Of a stretch of 27,606 nucleotides of DNA, positions 3,427 through 27,392 are shown piece by piece. The stretch's first letter is position 1; each line of letters begins with the position of its first letter. The translations under genes and the position numbers were made by a program. Source of the DNA: a virus; IMG/VR virus record IMGVR_UViG_3300045120_000265, positions 1 through 27,606 of that record; one strand, given 5' to 3'. The notes under the pieces are model-generated. The model had not been told where the DNA came from and searched no databases. It saw only the letters and a program-made list of their open reading frames with translations.

Positions 3427-4263
3427 TCAGCGATTAAGGTAGGGCGAATGCGGCATGTACGAGCGAGATTGCTGCGGCTGACCGAGCGCGGAGCCCTGCT
3501 GCTGAGACTGTGGAGACCAAGCGGCAGCCATGGGGTCGTAGGAAAATTCGTGCTTCGTCTTCCGCGTCATCATCGGCATCCACTGATCCGGTGGACGCTG
3601 CGCCGCAAGTGCGATGCCTGTCATCACGCCGTAGCGCTCGCAATCCATAAGGTGATCGTTCTCTTTCACCCGCTTTCCGTTTTCGTCACGGCGATAGATG
3701 CGGTGCTCGGCGAGATAGTTATGCAGCGTGCTGAAAACCTTTAGCCGCCCAGTACTTTTGCGCGTCCACACCGCGTAGATGCCTGCCTCCACCGCATTGT
3801 CGGCCTTGACCAGATGCAGACCGAGTTGCGTGTACTGCGTGAGCAGAGCATCGCCATCTTTCTGGCTACCGATCCGCGATGCTGGGTCGATCACTCCAGG
3901 CATCCAATCACCCCGAGCCTTCACGGCTGCGGCGTGAATTGGGGGCTCGGCCTGCCCACGATAGTATTCCCCGTGCCAGTAGAGGATGTCGTGCTCGGGG
4001 TCTACGGCGCCCCATAGAACCGCCGTTCGCTGCCAACCTACGTCCATTGCGTAAAAGAATTTATACCAAGCCGGAAACTCGAACGGCTCGCACACGAAGT
4101 CTGATTCCGGCACAGGATAGATCGCGCCAGCGCCAAGCGACGGAATGCCGCGCACACGAGCATCGCGCTCGTGCGGCATATACGACGCTTCCATCTCCGC
4201 CTGTGCGTTCGGATCAATGTGAGGAACATCGCTCCACGAGGCTTGAATTGACCATTTCGTCAT
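3427..4263 (-). CDS. terminase large subunit, nuclease half (split gene)
   Basis: This 278-residue ORF carries the RNase H-like headful nuclease of a large terminase, which cuts concatemeric phage DNA at the start and end of packaging. Acidic residues expected of the fold are visible: D74 (YAMDVGWQRTA), D126 (PGVIDPASR) and D207 (DHLMDCERYG). The first 45 residues (WSIQASWSDVPHI, then HERDARVRGIPSLGAGAIYP) normally belong to the end of the ATPase domain. The last 40 residues are Gln/Ser-rich. ATG 4263 overlaps the ATPase-half stop as ATGA and has a good Shine-Dalgarno (GGAGG, 9 nt upstream), so independent translation is plausible. The two halves total 524 residues, a normal terminase length. 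Confidence 0.93.
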   Translation of the reverse strand: MTKWSIQASWSDVPHIDPNAQAEMEASYMPHERDARVRGIPSLGAGAIYPVPESDFVCEPFEFPAWYKFFYAMDVGWQRTAVLWGAVDPEHDILYWHGEYYRGQAEPPIHAAAVKARGDWMPGVIDPASRIGSQKDGDALLTQYTQLGLHLVKADNAVEAGIYAVWTRKSTGRLKVFSTLHNYLAEHRIYRRDENGKRVKENDHLMDCERYGVMTGIALAAQRPPDQWMPMMTRKTKHEFSYDPMAAAWSPQSQQQGSALGQPQQSRSYMPHSPYLNR

Positions 4264-5000
4264 GCGGCTTTCCCTCCAGGCAGATACGATAGCACGACGC
4301 CGCTTAGCCCTTTGAGCGGAGTGAAGCTACACATCACCAGCCCGGATGGCTGGCCAGGAACGGTACTGAGTGTGCGCGTGTGGCCCTCCGTGTAAATCGC
4401 CATCGGCGGCTCCTCATCGAAGACCATGATGTCGATTGCGGCGGCCTGGAAAGATTCGCGGCCCTGATCGTAGGTCTTGAACAGCACACGAGAATTTCCG
4501 CCATGGTCGCTCTTGACCGTTACGGCATCGACGGCCTCCGGCACACCAGCTCGCGCGGTTGTTGAGACGATGGAGTCGCCGGGTATGAGCCCCGTGCCCG
4601 GAGCCGACGGCGGACCAAGCAACGTCACCTGCAAAGATTCGCGCACAGCCTTAGCGTCCTCGCCAGCGGCCCACGCCACAACCGGACGATTAAATCGCCG
4701 TCCTGCCCACCAATGCGGATAGGCGCCGGTCAGATGGCAAGTAAGTTCGTAACAAACCGCGAGAGTTTTTCCGACCCGGTTCCCGGCGATAAAAGCGCGC
4801 TCTTGGTTGTCGGCTCCGGCCGCAAAGAACGCGAGGTGTTTTGGATATAGCTCGCGGCGGAGCGGGCCGGTATCAGGGTAAATCGTCCACAACTTCCGGC
4901 GCGACTCGGCGCGTTTAATTCGGTTTCTTAGTTCCTCCGCCAGTTCCGCCCGAGACTCCGGCGAGATCGTCGATAGCTGCGAGGAGAGCGCGTTGCTCAT
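4260..5000 (-). CDS. terminase large subunit, ATPase half (split gene)
   Basis: This 246-residue ORF is the packaging-motor half of the large terminase. Walker A is GNRVGKT (residues 73-79). Walker B is IMVFDEEPP, with D195 and E196 as the acidic pair. The coupling motif SFTPLKG lies at 225-231. It stops at TGA 4262-4260 soon after motif III, where related terminases continue without a break. The start ATG 5000 lies 86 bp inside the small terminase gene and has no clear ribosome-binding site. No ATG lies further downstream within the overlap, and the N-terminal segment resembles related terminases, so I keep it. The motor would hydrolyse ATP at the portal ring during packaging. Confidence 0.9.
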   Translation of the reverse strand: MSNALSSQLSTISPESRAELAEELRNRIKRAESRRKLWTIYPDTGPLRRELYPKHLAFFAAGADNQERAFIAGNRVGKTLAVCYELTCHLTGAYPHWWAGRRFNRPVVAWAAGEDAKAVRESLQVTLLGPPSAPGTGLIPGDSIVSTTARAGVPEAVDAVTVKSDHGGNSRVLFKTYDQGRESFQAAAIDIMVFDEEPPMAIYTEGHTRTLSTVPGQPSGLVMCSFTPLKGLSGVVLSYLPGGKAA

Positions 5001-9608: not shown

Positions 9609-10013
9609 ATCAAATTTGGTGGCTCCACGCGAAGTACCTCCCACCACGCGCGCGATGGGCGCGGATTGGGGGAGGTGGGGCCTCGCCTGGCGCACGCGCA
9701 CAAAATCTTGCGACTGGCGGAGAGATCGGCCATGATGCCATGCAGCTCGCATGCCCAGGCATTACCTCGACGAGCGCACATCTACCTCGCGCATGTTTAC
9801 ACTGTATATTTCCCATAATGTGGCTTATCATGCAGCGTAAGCCATTGATATCATTACAAGTGTATCGGTAGTTGCATTATCAGTCGCGCGAGTTTCCCGC
9901 ACAGGTTAGCGGAATCAACGCCTAGACCGCGCCAGCGCCGGCCAGATCGGCCTCGACCTCATAACAACGCCAGAGCGTTATGACCCCGTTGAGACGGCTT
10001 GTTGCGACCGGCT

Positions 10014-10176
10014 GTTATGTCTCTTTATATAATACAATCAAATAGTTAGTAGTAGTAGTAGTAGAAGACATAACTGTAAAACGTACACACACATATACAC
10101 GCATACACGCACACGCACACACACGTGCGCGCACACGTGAGGCATATGTGTGTAGCCCTATTTTGCGTTATGTCTC
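10014..10176. repeat. dispersed GTTATGTCT repeats
   Basis: GTTATGTCTC occurs at 10014-10023 and 10167-10176. The inverted form AGACATAAC lies at 10066-10074, and a partial copy (CACATAAC) overlaps the end of the 13-bp tandem repeat near 10230-10237. A related inverted pair, ATAAC and GTTAT, lies at 9961-9981. The copies are interleaved with the GTTGAGAC sites, so two different binding proteins may share the region. Confidence 0.45.
10081..10139. repeat. 59-bp perfect alternating purine-pyrimidine tract
   Basis: Every base from 10081 to 10139 alternates purine and pyrimidine, mostly AC and GC steps. Such DNA readily adopts the Z form under negative supercoiling and can unwind or hinder polymerases. 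ACACACATAT at 10087-10096 is an exact inverted repeat of ATATGTGTGT at 10144-10153, so a hairpin is also possible. The tract sits in the middle of the control region, between the repeat copies. Confidence 0.75.
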
Positions 10177-10346
10177 GCTAAGTATCTGATAGTGTTGGGA
10201 TAAAAGTCTCAACGGGCAGTCTCAACGGGCACATAACAGGAAATCGCTGTTGAGACCCGATCGTTTAAAATCAAAGGCTTAGGTATTTGCGCTGGACTGG
10301 TCTTGGCTTGATTTGGCTGTTTTTGAGGTGACCTAGGTTAGAAGCT

Positions 10347-13657: not shown

Positions 13658-13864
13658 ATGGAACCGGAGCAATTTCGGTCCCTTGCCATTGAGATATATG
13701 GCAAGTGGGGCCACCAACGTCACATGGCACGCGAGCATAAAGTCGCGCAAACTATCGTGCGGCGTTGGTGCCTTGGGCAACTGCCAATTCCACAAGAAGT
13801 CGTAGCAAGACTGCGTAAAGACGCAGCGAAGAAGCTAGGCGCGGTAGGCGATCTGCTCGCATGA
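13658..13864 (+). CDS. small helix-turn-helix protein
   Basis: A 68-residue protein, MEPEQFRSLAIEIYGKWGHQ onward. It has the same plan as the gene at 13277: a helix with IYGKWG, then a turn and recognition helix (HKVAQTIVRRWCLGQLPIP). It probably binds DNA. The stop overlaps the primase start as ATGA, so it is co-translated with the replication enzyme. Confidence 0.7.
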   Translation: MEPEQFRSLAIEIYGKWGHQRHMAREHKVAQTIVRRWCLGQLPIPQEVVARLRKDAAKKLGAVGDLLA

Positions 13865-16497
13865 CATCCACCCCCGCCCAGATCGAGTCCATCAGACAAA
13901 CCACGGACATCGTGGCACTGGTCCGGTCGAGCGTGAAGCTAACCCGCAAGGGCGACGTGTTCTGGGGGCTTTGTCCGTTTCATGGCCCGGAGAATACCGC
14001 GTCGTTCAAGGTCGATAACATCCGGCGCAGGTTTCACTGCTTCGCGTGCGGGGCCGATGGTGACGCCTTCAAATGGGTACAGGAAACTGAGCATCTGACA
14101 TTCCCCGAGGCGGTGGACTGGCTGAGCAACGGCCATGCGCCCAAGGTCAAAGCCAACGGTCACGCTGCACCCCATAAGCCGCCGCGCCCAACGCCGACGG
14201 CAATCATGCCTGTGCCGGCCGATGCTCCAGCGCCAGTGTTCGAGCACCCAAGACACGGCAAACCCAGCCAAACTTGGACTTACATGGGCAGCGCGGGCGA
14301 GCCGTTGGCCTATGTCGCGCGCTTCGACACGGCCGAAGGGAAAGAGATTATCCCTCGCGTCTACACCGCGACGGGCTGGCGCTGGCAGGGCTTACCTAAG
14401 CCGCGCCCGCTGTACGGGCTGGACCGCTTAGCCGCACGCCCTGACGCGCCTGTGGTCGTGGTCGAGGGCGAGAAATGTGCGGACGCGGCCGTTACGCTCT
14501 GCCCGAATCATGTGGTCGTGACGTGGTGCGGCGGCGTTGGTGCGGTCGAGTACACCGACTGGGCACCGCTGGCTGGCCGCAACGTGATGATCTGGCCGGA
14601 TGCCGACGATCCCGGCGTTAAGGCTGCGCACGCGATCAGGCAAATCTTAGGGAAGCAAGCCAAGACGGTTATGCCGCCGGATGATGCCGCGAAGGGCTTT
14701 GATGCTGCCGACGCGCTGGCCGAGGGCTGGGACTGGCCGCGCGTCCAAGACTGGCTCCTTCGCCGCCGCATCGGCGAGCCCCACGTCCATCGGCCGAAGA
14801 AGGAGAAGAAAGCTCGCGGCCCAATCCCCGAATCGGACAGCGACGGCGCCGATCCTATGCAGGGCGAAGGACTGCCCGCGCCGCTGCCGGAGCCGGAAGG
14901 TTGGCCGTTTCAGGTTTTAGGCCACTATCGCGGAACGCATTTTTATCTTCCGAACTCGGGCGGCACGATCATTACCCTATCTGCGTCGGCACATGTCCCA
15001 AAGAATTTTTACGATCTGGCCCCGCTAAACTTTTGGGAAGCCCAGTTCGGATGCAGGGAGCGGGCCGGGTGGGAAGCGGCGGCAAACGCGCTGATACAAA
15101 CCTCACTGAGGGTCGGCATCTATGACCAAACGCGGCTCCGCGGGCGCGGCGCATGGTGGGACGATGGCCGGGTCGTGGTTCACCTGGGAGATCGCCTAGT
15201 CGTGGACGGGATAGTGACGCCGATCCGCCAACATAAATCCGACTACTTTTACGAAGTCGGGGCCAAGATCAAATTTGCCTCGGGGCAACCACTCTCGAAC
15301 GCCGAGGCGTCGAAGCTGCTGGACCTCTGCAAGATGCTGGCATGGGAGCGCCCACTATCCGCCTACCAGCTCGCGGGCTGGATTGCCGGAGCACCGATCT
15401 GCGGCGCGTTGAAATGGCGCCCACATATTTTCGTGTCGGGAGTCGCAGGCGCGGGGAAAAGTTGGATTTATCAAAACATCATCGTGCGGGCGATCGGAAA
15501 CGCAGGATGGCCCCTTGCTTCCAGCGTCACTGAGCCAGGCATCCGCCGCGTTCTTGGGTCTGATGCGCTACCAGTTATGATTGACGAACTTGAAGCAAGA
15601 GACGAGCGCGGAGTTCAGCGCGTCGAGGGCATCATGGGCTTGATGCGCTATTCGTCCAGCGAAACCGATGCGATCATCGTCAAGGGCACACAGGGCGGCG
15701 GCGGCGTCGATATGTTCCGCATCCGCTCGATGTTCTGCATCTTGGCGATTGGTTCGATCATCAAGGACTATGCCGACACAACACGCATCAGCACCTTGTC
15801 GCTCAAGGCAGTAGCTGGCGCGGCAGGCGCCGAGCGCTTCGCGCGTATCGAAAGCGCAACGCGAGAGCTGCTGACCGATGATTGGATCGACCGATTGCAC
15901 TCGCGGATTGTCGGGCTCATTCCAGTGATTCGCCATAATGCTGAAGTGTTCGCGGTAGCGGGCGCGCAAGTCCTCGATACGAGGCGTTTGGGCGATCAGA
16001 TCGGAACGCAACTCGCCCTGGCTTACGCACTGACCAGCATAAAACAAATCACGCCAGCCGATGCAAAAGCGTGGCTTGAAAGTCAGGACTGGACAGAGGA
16101 GCGCGAAATCACCCAGGACACCGACGGGCCGATGTGCTTGGCGAAAATACTTGAGCACCAAATCTCGGTCGAGACCGCAGGGCGCGGATCGGTCAAGCGC
16201 ACCATCGGCGAACTGATCGTGCTGTCGCGCCACACGATGTACCAAACGGACGAATTTATCTCATCCGACACCGCAGGCTCAGCGCTGAAGCGGCACGGGA
16301 TTGCCCCCATGAAAGGCGACTATGAGGGGTTTGTGGCTATCTCGAACACACACTCGGCCATCGGAAAAATTCTGTACGACACGCCGTGGGCAAGCAATTG
16401 GAGCCGCCGGCTGGCCGTGATTCCCGAAGCACTCAAGCACGATAAGGCGATCTATTTTGCCGGGACCGTCAGCCGCGCCGTGCTGGTTAAGGTTTAA
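13861..16497 (+). CDS. primase-helicase (CHC2 zinc finger, TOPRIM, ATPase)
   Basis: An 878-residue replication protein. Residues 1-90 form a CHC2 zinc-binding primase domain with ligands C38, H41, C60 and C63 (CPFH and CFAC). A Pro-rich linker leads to a TOPRIM-like region (VVVVEGEKCADAA with E202, and IWPDADDPG with D247 and D249) expected to hold catalytic metal. After a second linker (310-345), residues 350-700 resemble the DUF927-type helicase: Walker A GVAGAGKSW at 527-534 and Walker B VMIDELEARD near 572-581. It would synthesise primers and unwind the phage fork. Convergent stop codons overlap with rusA (TTAA). Confidence 0.92.
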   Translation: MTSTPAQIESIRQTTDIVALVRSSVKLTRKGDVFWGLCPFHGPENTASFKVDNIRRRFHCFACGADGDAFKWVQETEHLTFPEAVDWLSNGHAPKVKANGHAAPHKPPRPTPTAIMPVPADAPAPVFEHPRHGKPSQTWTYMGSAGEPLAYVARFDTAEGKEIIPRVYTATGWRWQGLPKPRPLYGLDRLAARPDAPVVVVEGEKCADAAVTLCPNHVVVTWCGGVGAVEYTDWAPLAGRNVMIWPDADDPGVKAAHAIRQILGKQAKTVMPPDDAAKGFDAADALAEGWDWPRVQDWLLRRRIGEPHVHRPKKEKKARGPIPESDSDGADPMQGEGLPAPLPEPEGWPFQVLGHYRGTHFYLPNSGGTIITLSASAHVPKNFYDLAPLNFWEAQFGCRERAGWEAAANALIQTSLRVGIYDQTRLRGRGAWWDDGRVVVHLGDRLVVDGIVTPIRQHKSDYFYEVGAKIKFASGQPLSNAEASKLLDLCKMLAWERPLSAYQLAGWIAGAPICGALKWRPHIFVSGVAGAGKSWIYQNIIVRAIGNAGWPLASSVTEPGIRRVLGSDALPVMIDELEARDERGVQRVEGIMGLMRYSSSETDAIIVKGTQGGGGVDMFRIRSMFCILAIGSIIKDYADTTRISTLSLKAVAGAAGAERFARIESATRELLTDDWIDRLHSRIVGLIPVIRHNAEVFAVAGAQVLDTRRLGDQIGTQLALAYALTSIKQITPADAKAWLESQDWTEEREITQDTDGPMCLAKILEHQISVETAGRGSVKRTIGELIVLSRHTMYQTDEFISSDTAGSALKRHGIAPMKGDYEGFVAISNTHSAIGKILYDTPWASNWSRRLAVIPEALKHDKAIYFAGTVSRAVLVKV

Positions 16498-19034: not shown

Positions 19035-19046
19035 CAATGCTCCGTA

Positions 19047-19066
19047 GGCTGCCAATTTAGGCAGCC
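19047..19066. promoter_or_regulatory. perfect palindrome in the methyltransferase leader
   Basis: GGCTGCC (19047-19053) and GGCAGCC (19060-19066) form a perfect 7-bp inverted repeat around AATTTA, 12 bp before the methyltransferase start. It could be an operator for autoregulation, which is common for C5 methyltransferases, or an RNA hairpin that limits translation. Confidence 0.5.
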
Positions 19067-19075
19067 CGCGGACGA

Positions 19076-19125
19076 TTGTCCACACACAAAACTACAGAAT
19101 TTCTATAATCTACTTTTGTCCACAC
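19076..19125. promoter_or_regulatory. divergent promoter region with two DnaA-box-like sequences
   Basis: TTGTCCACAC occurs at 19076-19085 and 19116-19125, exactly 40 bp apart. Its first nine bases differ from the DnaA box TTATCCACA at one position. A perfect TATAAT lies between them at 19104-19109, pointing toward the recombinase, without a good -35. The region separates the leftward methyltransferase operon from the rightward recombinase. It may be co-regulated or DnaA-responsive. Confidence 0.5.
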
Positions 19126-19171
19126 GGAAAATGGATAGATTTGGATTTTCCGGCGTGCTACACCTTTGCTA

Positions 19172-20058: not shown

Positions 20059-20244
20059 ATGACCCGCAACGTAGCCGAAGCCGCGAAGCGCATCCTCAGC
20101 ATGAGCGATGACGAGATTGCTCTGTTCGCGAAGCGCGACCCGGACATGATCCGCGACATCGCGCGCCCGCGTGCGCCGTACCCCGTCATCGAACTGGCCG
20201 ACGATTGGAATGTGATGCTTGCGCCAATTCAACCCTCTACATAG
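20059..20244 (+). CDS. small hypothetical protein
   Basis: A 61-residue helical protein (NVAEAAKRILSMSDDEIALF). ATG 20059 is preferred because GAGAAGG lies just before it, in a cassette that recurs before 21884; ATG 20047 is possible and overlaps the upstream stop. The last codons, encoding QPST and the stop, are part of a 23-bp repeat shared with 25524-25546. No function is known. Confidence 0.65.
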   Translation: MTRNVAEAAKRILSMSDDEIALFAKRDPDMIRDIARPRAPYPVIELADDWNVMLAPIQPST

Positions 20245-20251
20245 GACGAGC
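20229..20251 (+). repeat. 23-bp exact repeat, copy 1 (second copy at 25524-25546)
   Basis: The two copies are identical over 23 bp, beginning TCAACCCTCTACATAGG and ending with a ribosome-binding segment GACGAGC. Each is followed by a GTG start. Both also supply the last codons (QPST, stop) of an upstream reading frame. The pattern suggests a duplicated gene junction rather than a chance match. Confidence 0.8.
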
Positions 20252-23752: not shown

Positions 23753-24775
23753 ATGTGCCAACATTTTCTGCTTTCCGCCAAGGCCCGGACACTCAGCCTC
23801 GCGACCGTTCTTCGTATGTCGGACGATGAGGCTTTCGAGGCGTTCAAAGCTATCCGCTGGTCCGACAATGACGGCGAAGCCTATTGCCCGAAATGCGGCT
23901 GCACGGCGGTTTATCAGTACACGGCGCGTCGCATCTTCAAATGCAAAGGCTGTGAGGCGCAATTCTCGCTCACCTCCGGCACGATCTTCGCCAGCCGCAA
24001 GCTGTCGCTGCAAGACATTCTTGGCGCTATTGCGATCTTCGTGAACGGCGCGAAGGGTCACAGCGCATTGCAGCTCAGCCGCGATTTGGATTGCCAGTAC
24101 AAAACGGCGTTCGTGCTGTCGCATAAAATCCGCGAAGCACTCGCGTCCGAAATGAACGGCAAGACGTTGAACGGCGTTGTCGAAATCGACGGCGCGTATT
24201 TCGGCGGCTATGTGAAGCCTGAGAACCGCAAGGAAGATCGTAAAGACCGCCGCTTGCTGGAGAACCGTTCCGGCAAGCGCAAATGCGTTGTTGTCATGCG
24301 TGCGCGTAACGGTCGCACGCTTCCGCACGTTTGCGAGTCCGAAGATGAAGCGGTGCCGGCAATCCTTGCGCGCGTTGAAACTGGCAGCACGATCCATGCC
24401 GATGAAGGCAGCGCGTGGGACGTTCTGCACGGCAGCTACAAGGCGCATCGCGTCAATCACAGCATTGCGTTCTGGGATAAAGGCGCTTGCACCAATCAAG
24501 CCGAGTCGTTCTTTTCGCGTCTTCGCCGCGCTGAGATCGGCACGCATCACCACATCAGCGGCAAGTATCTTCATCAATATGCGAACGAAATGGCGTGGCG
24601 TGAAGATCACCGCCGCCAGAGCAATGGCGCGCAATATCTGATGACGGTCGGCGCTACGCTGGCTCACCCGGTTTCGAGGAACTGGAAGGGTTACTGGCAG
24701 CGGGCGGTTGCGTTAGTCCGTCCAGTGATGGTTCCTGGTAACGCCCCTGACGCATCTGCTCTAGACGCTGAGTGA
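23753..24775 (+). CDS. IS1595-family transposase
   Basis: A 340-residue transposase. The N-terminal zinc ribbon has C45, C48, C64 and C67 (YCPKCG and KCKGC). The DDE-like domain is visible as VEIDGAYFGG with D146, HADEG with D217, and TNQAESFFSRLRR with N248 or E251, followed by the family signature GTHHHISGKYLHQYANEMAW. Length is full, with no frameshift, so it may be active. The 3' end overlaps the leftward 85-residue gene by 122 bp antisense. Confidence 0.93.
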   Translation: MCQHFLLSAKARTLSLATVLRMSDDEAFEAFKAIRWSDNDGEAYCPKCGCTAVYQYTARRIFKCKGCEAQFSLTSGTIFASRKLSLQDILGAIAIFVNGAKGHSALQLSRDLDCQYKTAFVLSHKIREALASEMNGKTLNGVVEIDGAYFGGYVKPENRKEDRKDRRLLENRSGKRKCVVVMRARNGRTLPHVCESEDEAVPAILARVETGSTIHADEGSAWDVLHGSYKAHRVNHSIAFWDKGACTNQAESFFSRLRRAEIGTHHHISGKYLHQYANEMAWREDHRRQSNGAQYLMTVGATLAHPVSRNWKGYWQRAVALVRPVMVPGNAPDASALDAE

Positions 24776-25349: not shown

Positions 25350-25539
25350 TGTGTCTGCTACCTAATGCCGAAGATTTCGTTGAGTGTCCCCAATGCGAGG
25401 CCGAGATAAAGGCGAGGCAACGGCGGGCGAACGCAATCGGAGATGCTGCGTGCCTGAGCAGTTTCAGGACCAATGCGGGCAATGTAACGGGACCGGCTAC
25501 GTGATTGTAACCAGTGAATCAGATCAACCCTCTACATAG
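25349..25539 (+). pseudogene. probable frameshifted small zinc-ribbon gene
   Basis: One frame from GTG 25349 reads NAEDFVECPQCEAEIKARQR and ends at a TGA near 25502. The next frame over, ending at TAG 25537-25539, reads FQDQCGQCNGTGYVIVTSES. Joined, they would give one small protein with two CxxC knuckles (CPQC and CGQC), a normal zinc ribbon. The break lies near 25430-25470. It may be a true frameshift mutation, recoding, or a sequence error. The alternative is a 48-codon gene from ATG 25393 carrying only the second knuckle. Confidence 0.45.
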
Positions 25540-25546
25540 GACGAGC
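25524..25546 (+). repeat. 23-bp exact repeat, copy 2 (first copy at 20229-20251)
   Basis: Identical to 20229-20251. It carries the end of the zinc-ribbon frame (QPST, stop) and the ribosome-binding segment for the GTG start at 25553. The IS element lies between the two copies, about 5.3 kb apart. Confidence 0.8.
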
Positions 25547-25735: not shown

Positions 25736-25888
25736 ATGACGGCGTACTGCATCCGTTGGAAAAAGACCGGTGAGCTATGCACGGTGACGATGGCTAACGC
25801 TCTGGCGATCTTCCCAACGCGGAAAGAGGCGCTCGCCTTTCGAGTTCATGGAGCCAAGGTTGTTCCGATAGCCCTGCCAGACAAGTGA
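25736..25888 (+). CDS. small hypothetical protein
   Basis: A 50-residue protein, MTAYCIRWKKTGELCTVTMA onward, with a mixed alpha/beta pattern (IFPTRKEALAFRVHGAKVV). AAAGGAGA lies about 7 nt before ATG 25736. Its stop overlaps a possible GTG start of the next gene. No family is recognised. Confidence 0.6.
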   Translation: MTAYCIRWKKTGELCTVTMANALAIFPTRKEALAFRVHGAKVVPIALPDK

Positions 25889-25896
25889 CGAGCGCC

Positions 25897-26100
25897 ATGC
25901 GCCTTGCCGTTCTCAGAGCCCTAGTCGATGCCGCAAACCCGCTAACGGCTGCGGATGTCTGCGAACGCATAGGCAAGTCGCCTTGGGCTGATCGTGAGGC
26001 GGTAAGATCGTCACTTAATCGCCTCGTCAAGGCTGGCGTTGCCACAAGGACGGAAGGCAGACCACCCGCCCCTGTCTATTATTCATTGGTGAAGCCATGA
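25897..26100 (+). CDS. winged-helix DNA-binding protein
   Basis: A 67-residue winged helix-turn-helix. VLRALVDAANPLTAADVCER forms the first two helices, DREAVRSSLNRLVKAGVATR the recognition helix and start of the wing, and RPPAPVYYSL the wing strand. It is a probable small transcription regulator. ATG 25897 with GACGAG upstream is preferred to GTG 25885, which overlaps the upstream stop. The stop overlaps the next start as ATGA. Confidence 0.75.
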   Translation: MRLAVLRALVDAANPLTAADVCERIGKSPWADREAVRSSLNRLVKAGVATRTEGRPPAPVYYSLVKP

Positions 26101-26309: not shown

Positions 26310-26885
26310 CTACTCAGCCGCCGCCAGTTGCTCGCGGAGCCGCTGGAAAGCGTTGCAAAGACTCGAATGATCGTAACCCGCGACCATACCAATCCCAGTC
26401 GTGGAATATCGGCCTGTATCGTAGAGCGTTTTCCACGCACGCCAGCGAACATGGACAATCTTCCGCTTGCGACTGCATCCGAGCAGTGTGTCAACCGCGA
26501 TACCGGCGGCGTCGGCCTCGACTTGAAGCGCGGCAAGATAGAGCCGGCGTGATGGCCTGCCCGCCTGCCTTTGATAAACATAAACGCCGATCTTCGTCGC
26601 CTGTATCCTGCACGCATGGGCAGAGCGCCCGAGAACCGATGCGCAGTGCCGAGCGCCCTTGTGCATATAGTTCTGGCGCAGGTAGTCATATTCTTCCGCA
26701 GTCCACGAGCTTTTGCGGAGAGGCGAAGGCGGCAAGCGAAGCTGGTTAGTCTTGGTCTGGACCGCATATTTTGAACGCCCAAGGCGGCGAGCAATCTCGA
26801 TCTTAGGTACGACATTCCGCCATTCTCGCAGTTGCGCGATTTCCTCGTCGGTCCACCATCGGCGATCCGTTTTCTTCTTGCTCAC
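26310..26885 (-). CDS. SANT/GcrA-like repeats fused to a DnaA domain IV-like region
   Basis: A 191-residue protein. Residues 10-50 (WWTDEEIAQLREW, then IARRLGRSKYAVQTKTNQL) and 60-100 (WTAEEYDYLRQNY, then CASVLGRSAHACRIQATKIG) are two SANT/Myb or GcrA-like helix-turn-helix units. Residues 122-185 follow DnaA domain IV: AAGIAVDTLLGCSRKRKIVH, then a basic helix, GIGMVAG and YDHSSLCNAFQRL, where DHSS matches the DnaA signature that reads the DnaA box. There is no AAA+ domain, so it cannot initiate replication like DnaA but could occupy DnaA boxes. Confidence 0.75.
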   Translation of the reverse strand: MSKKKTDRRWWTDEEIAQLREWRNVVPKIEIARRLGRSKYAVQTKTNQLRLPPSPLRKSSWTAEEYDYLRQNYMHKGARHCASVLGRSAHACRIQATKIGVYVYQRQAGRPSRRLYLAALQVEADAAGIAVDTLLGCSRKRKIVHVRWRAWKTLYDTGRYSTTGIGMVAGYDHSSLCNAFQRLREQLAAAE

Positions 26886-27058
26886 GACTCCTCCGCACGA
26901 CGCAGCACCGTCAACAGCGTAAGCACCCCCGCCGCCGTTTCCGTCTTGGCCTCTTTCGTTTCGAGCATCTTGAGCATATTGCCGATGCGGTAGGCTAGCT
27001 CTCGCAGCGCCGCCAGTTCGGAGCGGCTGACGCGGACTTCAACTATTTCAGCGCTCAT
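26882..27058 (-). CDS. small helical hypothetical protein
   Basis: A 58-residue protein from ATG 27058. A short strand (EIVEVRVSRSE) is followed by a long helix (LAALRELAYRIGNMLKMLE), so a small coiled-coil or ribbon-helix-helix-like dimer is possible. Its stop overlaps the next gene as ATGA, and the start overlaps the upstream gene by 11 bp. A longer in-frame start at 27136 is rejected. Confidence 0.6.
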   Translation of the reverse strand: MSAEIVEVRVSRSELAALRELAYRIGNMLKMLETKEAKTETAAGVLTLLTVLRRAEES

Positions 27059-27392
27059 GAGACCGCCATTGGTTGCGGAGGCCAACAAGCAGCCGACCGT
27101 ATAGCATGTAGCCGCCACTCTCACGCCACTCCTCATTTAGTTCTTCGCGCAACTCACCAAAGGCTGCGGGGCAGTCGCATTCGGAGTTGTGGAATAGGAC
27201 TTCTCGCGCAAATTCGCACTGCCAGCAATTTGCAAATGACCTGACATAGCCGTCCCACTTGCCGCTGATCCGGTGATAGCGCTCGCCCTTTGCAATCTCG
27301 CGGCGACAGTCGTCACACCTGTGCGGCTTTCGCGCCCTAACCCAATCGGCGTTATAAAACTCTGGTACGTCCGCGTCGCAGCTACACATCAT
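27048..27392 (-). CDS. zinc-binding phage protein
   Basis: A 114-residue protein. CSCD at the start, HRCDDCRREIAKGERYHRIS (residues 24-43) and CWQCEFAREVL form Cys pairs typical of a phage zinc-binding family I recall, of unknown function. CDCPAAFGELREELNEEW adds two more Cys. The start overlaps the upstream gene as ATGA. Confidence 0.75.
   Translation of the reverse strand: MMCSCDADVPEFYNADWVRARKPHRCDDCRREIAKGERYHRISGKWDGYVRSFANCWQCEFAREVLFHNSECDCPAAFGELREELNEEWRESGGYMLYGRLLVGLRNQWRSHER

Follow-up and report, generated by a model that had tools for sequence, protein, structure and literature searches.

A phage protein coupling two SANT/Myb-type units to a DnaA domain IV-like domain, a candidate transcription regulator

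A 191-residue protein encoded in a 27,606-base virus record (the whole stretch of DNA analyzed here, called the window below) consists of two SANT/Myb-type units followed by a domain, residues 113-190, that sequence profiles and the predicted fold both identify as DnaA domain IV. These three predicted DNA-binding modules take up all 191 residues. Phage proteins that carry DnaA domain IV without the DnaA motor are already known; what is new is the SANT-SANT-DnaA-IV arrangement. The likeliest role for the protein is that of a phage-encoded, sequence-specific transcription regulator, a reading to which we assign a probability of about one half, rather than specifically that of a competitor of host DnaA.

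The window represents a tailed phage, with genes for an epsilon15-type head-tail connector, terminase, primase-helicase, RusA, C5 methyltransferase, and serine recombinase. The connector protein has distant relatives in 173 named phages, and none was found in viral_contigs. The large terminase may be divided between overlapping ORFs at 3427-4263 and 4260-5000 (minus strand), by a natural split or by a frameshift; the upstream ORF matches Terminase_6N and the downstream one has no Pfam match. An IS1595-family transposase gene (ISXO2-like DDE domain, E=2e-43) lies inside the phage record at 23753-24775 (plus strand). Close to the point where gene direction changes from leftward to rightward, the region 9977-10237 holds an inverted repeat, with 32-base arms that are 81% complementary and 197 bases apart, and repeated GTCTCAACGGG words. 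An exact 23-base repeat, TCAACCCTCTACATAGGACGAGC, occurs at 20229-20251 and at 25524-25546, each copy shortly ahead of a possible GTG start (of MSDGKCFEC... and MTDLEDAAH...), in the manner of a duplicated translation-start leader.

The ORF for the 191-residue protein occupies positions 26310-26885 on the minus strand, stop codon included. Its GTG start follows a GGAGGAG ribosome-binding site at 26888-26894 by two bases (GGAGGAGTCGTGAG) and shares four bases with the stop of a small upstream ORF of the same operon, 26882-27136 (minus strand). The ribosome-binding site and the overlap make 26310-26885 a credible gene. Its product carries a net charge of about +20 at pH 7, and every one of its modules is positive. 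Converging on this gene is a plus-strand operon that includes a 71-residue winged-helix-like protein (25885-26100; TrmB/MarR-like, E=4e-5).

The N-terminal half is built from tandem W-T-x-E-E units at residues 9-52 and 59-102 (26730-26861 and 26580-26711, minus strand), the second of which repeats the W-T-x-E-E ... G-R-S pattern of the first. PHROG 323 ("transcriptional regulator, D5-like") matches residues 3-119 with an E-value of 1.3e-14. The Pfam GcrA model finds unit 1 at E=0.015 (residues 11-55, 16.1 bits against a cut-off of 26.9), matching at profile positions 3-49 only, out of 155. In the AlphaFold model, helices span residues 13-22, 28-35, and 39-50 in unit 1 and residues 63-85 and 89-98 in unit 2. 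When modeled unit 1 is aligned with the DNA-binding domain of Caulobacter GcrA (5yiu), the Z-score is 7.2 (32% identity, 2.5 A across 47 residues), and it superposes at similar Z on Myb, Cdc5, and homeodomain units, so "SANT/Myb-type" is a safer name than "GcrA", which is a cofactor of sigma70. Homologous double SANT units are widespread across phages and plasmids.

The C-terminal domain (26316-26549, minus strand) is recognizable by sequence profile. Pfam model Bac_DnaA_C (PF08299) matches residues 124-181 with E=3.5e-4 and 21.0 bits, under its gathering cut-off of 31.5. A scan of viral_contigs for DNA encoding I-G-x3-G-x-D-H-[ST]-[ST] returned 49 stretches, 45 of them DnaA-IV-like ORFs, with 37 distinct domain sequences. 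Against the profile built from these 37 viral domains, residues 122-188 score 39.4 bits (E=7e-10 at Z=25,000). Because the scan pattern was modeled on the protein itself, the match was retested with the 12 motif residues masked; the masked domain scores 13.0 bits, while the best of 4000 shuffled sequences scores 9.6. In a tblastn search of phages and plasmids with the domain by itself, no match had an E-value better than about 1; a plasmid dnaA was among those obtained. The D-H-S-S signature (residues 172-175; 26361-26372, minus strand) aligns with DHTT, DHST, or DHSS in 17 viral domains and is the counterpart of D-H-T-T in DnaA. Residues matching the DNA contacts of DnaA are largely kept: R139 and R147, which we take from the alignment and the E. 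coli numbering to be the equivalents of R399 and R407 in E. coli DnaA, and D172, H173, S174, and S175, presumably equivalent to D433, H434, T435, and T436. In DnaA, residues R399, S400, T435, R442, and K443 contact DNA (PMC9638019). Since Q181 stands in place of R442, the specificity of the module may differ from that of DnaA.

Structure prediction against DnaA domain IV, the check named in the initial annotation, does show the fold. The AlphaFold model has a pLDDT of 85 overall and mostly 89-98 over residues 112-191, the DnaA-like domain coming after a linker of low model confidence at residues 107-109. Model residues 112-191 superpose on domain IV of DnaA from Bacillus subtilis (8btg, Z 11.9), Mycobacterium tuberculosis (3pvp, Z 11.2), and E. 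coli (1j1v, Z 10.9), with rmsd values of 1.9-2.3 over 78-79 residues, and the next unrelated structures match at a Z of about 7, well under these values. The alignment used for folding contained DnaA-IV relatives, so the fold and the profile match are not wholly independent evidence. A Foldseek search with the whole model gave modest E-values (best 0.028), as the model is multidomain and it is the domain-level alignment that counts; phmmer of the protein against the PDB gave no meaningful match. The architecture described in the initial annotation is thus borne out, namely two SANT/GcrA-like units, a DnaA domain IV with the DHSS signature and the basic helix, and the lack of an AAA+ motor, for which Pfam, PHROGs, and NCBIfam give no match in the protein. 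The DnaA-like region is indeed C-terminal, but it comprises about 78 residues (113-190) rather than the 65 originally given.

Phages commonly carry short DnaA-IV proteins that lack the motor. A single narrow DNA pattern is enough to find the 37 distinct domains, similar proteins are annotated in named, cultured phages such as those of Rhizobium and Pelagibacter, and they turn up repeatedly among BFVD matches. UniProt proteins of 150-190 residues with the annotation "DnaA C-terminal", such as A0A6J5KSA9, A0A6J5MPW1, and A0A6J5NR91, are candidates for further SANT and DnaA-IV fusions. None of the 37 pattern-found viral relatives has SANT units ahead of DnaA-IV. A targeted DNA pattern run over 2.9 million viral contigs gave a second case of the fusion, L055:839-1276(-) in IMGVR_UViG_3300036831_000125, a protein of 145 residues in which DnaA-IV comes after just one SANT unit. 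Against the profile of viral DnaA-IV domains it reaches 31.2 bits, and a model of it aligns with DnaA-IV at Z 8.4-8.8 and with Myb/GcrA units at a Z of about 7. A search for its relatives in viral_contigs returned only itself, a serine variant of the fusion pattern gave no further case, and the pattern W-T-x-E-[ED] ... G-x-D-H in genome_contigs matched 95 stretches but no DnaA-IV ORF in any of them. The fusion therefore looks rare, with one more clear case among 2.9 million viral contigs; the patterns used are narrow, so the true count is probably higher. Peptide patterns found no full-length relatives of the 191-residue protein in viral_contigs or genome_contigs, and the named phages provide one partial match, to the SANT half only.

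The assignment as a transcription regulator draws on the GafA and GafY activators, on the D5-like N-terminal half with its superposition of unit 1 on GcrA, on the DnaA-IV fold and sequence, and on the positive charge of the protein. In Rhodobacter capsulatus, activation of gene transfer agent (GTA) promoters by GafA requires its DnaA-like N-terminal domain (PMC9638019). GafY of Caulobacter crescentus, formerly HdaB, is a homologue of DnaA domain IV that binds GTA promoters (PMC9632790), at sites far upstream of -35 and with a need for IHF (PMC9632790, PMC11150451). As phages often have DnaA-tip proteins and the relatives studied in most depth act as gene switches, the protein is most likely a regulator of phage genes. 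Its DnaA-IV module would read some 9-12 bases resembling a DnaA box, with the bases next to them held by the SANT pair. Once bound, the protein would turn promoters of the phage (or host) on or off in the fashion of GafA, GafY, and the D5-like regulators. Lacking AAA+, the protein cannot itself melt DNA as DnaA does. A more elaborate version, which we consider quite improbable, makes the protein a three-headed initiator/regulator whose SANT units steer DnaA domain IV toward novel composite sites, bringing phage or host DnaA-box elements under phage control, with SANT plus DnaA-IV a recurrent, convergent phage design, as two dissimilar cases might suggest.

Gene neighborhoods tell against the regulator reading to some extent, as DnaB-type helicases, O-like and other initiation proteins, and HNH nucleases are same-strand neighbors of other phage DnaA-IV genes. 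The main rival is accordingly a replication-origin binder, a tentative and rather less probable reading in which DnaA-IV and the SANT units mark the phage origin and help to seat the phage primase-helicase, much as lambda O places DnaB at an origin. The phage has its own fused primase/helicase (878 residues, encoded at 13861-16497), and of 48 genes neighboring DnaA-IV genes on other viral contigs, 3 encode DnaB-type helicases and 2 match replication initiation families, in a tally made without a background set. The DnaA-IV gene of Rhizobium phages has DNA polymerase I or a DUF1376 protein for a neighbor, an arrangement just as consistent with a function in replication. Set against this, 10 kb separates the gene for the 191-residue protein from that for the primase-helicase, which belongs to a different operon, and no box array typical of an origin was found in the window, the sequence TTGTCCACA occurring just twice in 27.6 kb.

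The initial annotation had proposed that the protein competes with host DnaA or redirects it, a claim for which we found no direct support, and its motor-less kin are common, with the characterized ones (GafA and GafY) activating transcription. Such a protein would hold the DnaA boxes of the host origin or draw DnaA and replication proteins to phage DNA. The strong fold match to DnaA domain IV and the mostly retained DNA-contacting residues are consistent with this, and there is a prophage precedent in YfdR, from a cryptic E. coli prophage, which is reported to bind DnaA (PMC4776307). We nonetheless regard this reading as unlikely. GafY/HdaB was itself at first assigned to replication, before it was found to work by activating GTA, and its authors propose that it does not act on replication from oriC (PMC9632790). 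The repeats flanking TIRYT transposases with a DnaA-IV domain do not resemble DnaA boxes (PMC6006769), which argues that the specificity of the domain drifts. Moreover, DnaA boxes are not in excess on phage contigs bearing DnaA-IV (2 found in 324 kb of other such contigs, 2.55 expected), and their use as a signature of these phages was rejected on this count.

In the window itself, a box search finds candidate DnaA-box-like sites at 19076-19084 and 19116-19124 (plus strand), the second TTGTCCACA a direct repeat of the first 40 bases on. Both lie between the divergent C5 methyltransferase (minus strand) and serine recombinase (plus strand) genes, in an intergenic region (19036-19171) where the inverted repeat GGCTGCCAATTTAGGCAGCC occupies the left end and a TATAAT-like box is also present. 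A pair of this type within 60 bases appears in only 1 of 1500 shuffled windows, so the pair is probably meaningful. As a special case of regulation, the 191-residue protein might bind this pair and control the divergent recombinase and methyltransferase genes. The rarity of such a close pair and its position between divergent genes favor that proposal, but 7 kb separates the sites from the gene for the protein, and host DnaA, which should bind such sites as well, could equally be the ligand, which leaves local control of these two genes a long shot.

Motor-less DnaA-tip proteins of phages are annotated as "chromosomal replication initiator", a label that may suggest the wrong function. If the 191-residue protein binds promoters, the large phage DnaA-IV population would be better read as regulators of the GafA/GafY type; if it binds origins, then phages do tamper with the sites of DnaA. 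With its two additional SANT/GcrA-type units, the protein offers a clean test case for the function of DnaA-IV in phages.

Compared with known systems, the C-terminal domain resembles Bac_DnaA_C in its fold, in the R...R pair, in the I-G-x3-G-x-D-H-S-S signature, and in the basic helix, while the protein differs from full-length DnaA in having no AAA+ domain, D-H-S-S in place of D-H-T-T, and one residue fewer before the signature. Proteins QIG67322.1 of Rhizobium phage RHph_TM3_3_3 and UWJ04142.1 of Pelagibacter phage Skadi-4 are likewise small, motor-less, and built on DnaA-IV. GafA and GafY, from phage-derived elements of Alphaproteobacteria, also have a DnaA-IV-like domain and no AAA+. GafA, however, has its DnaA-like domain at the N terminus and a sigma-like DNA-binding region at the C terminus, whereas here DnaA-IV is C-terminal, after two SANT units. 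Pfam and NCBIfam scans of the 191-residue protein found no sigma-like domain. The other fusion, L055:839-1276(-), has the same order of SANT and then DnaA-IV but resembles the 191-residue protein in short stretches only. The tandem SANT/Myb-like units are shared with the D5-like regulators of PHROG 323 and the DNA-binding domain of GcrA, although the match to GcrA is weak and limited to the first 50 or so residues, and the double-SANT phage and plasmid proteins that we retrieved were found to have no DnaA-IV domain. Phages of the phiCbK type carry homologues of GcrA (PMC3556154), a further precedent for phages taking up cell-cycle DNA-binding modules.
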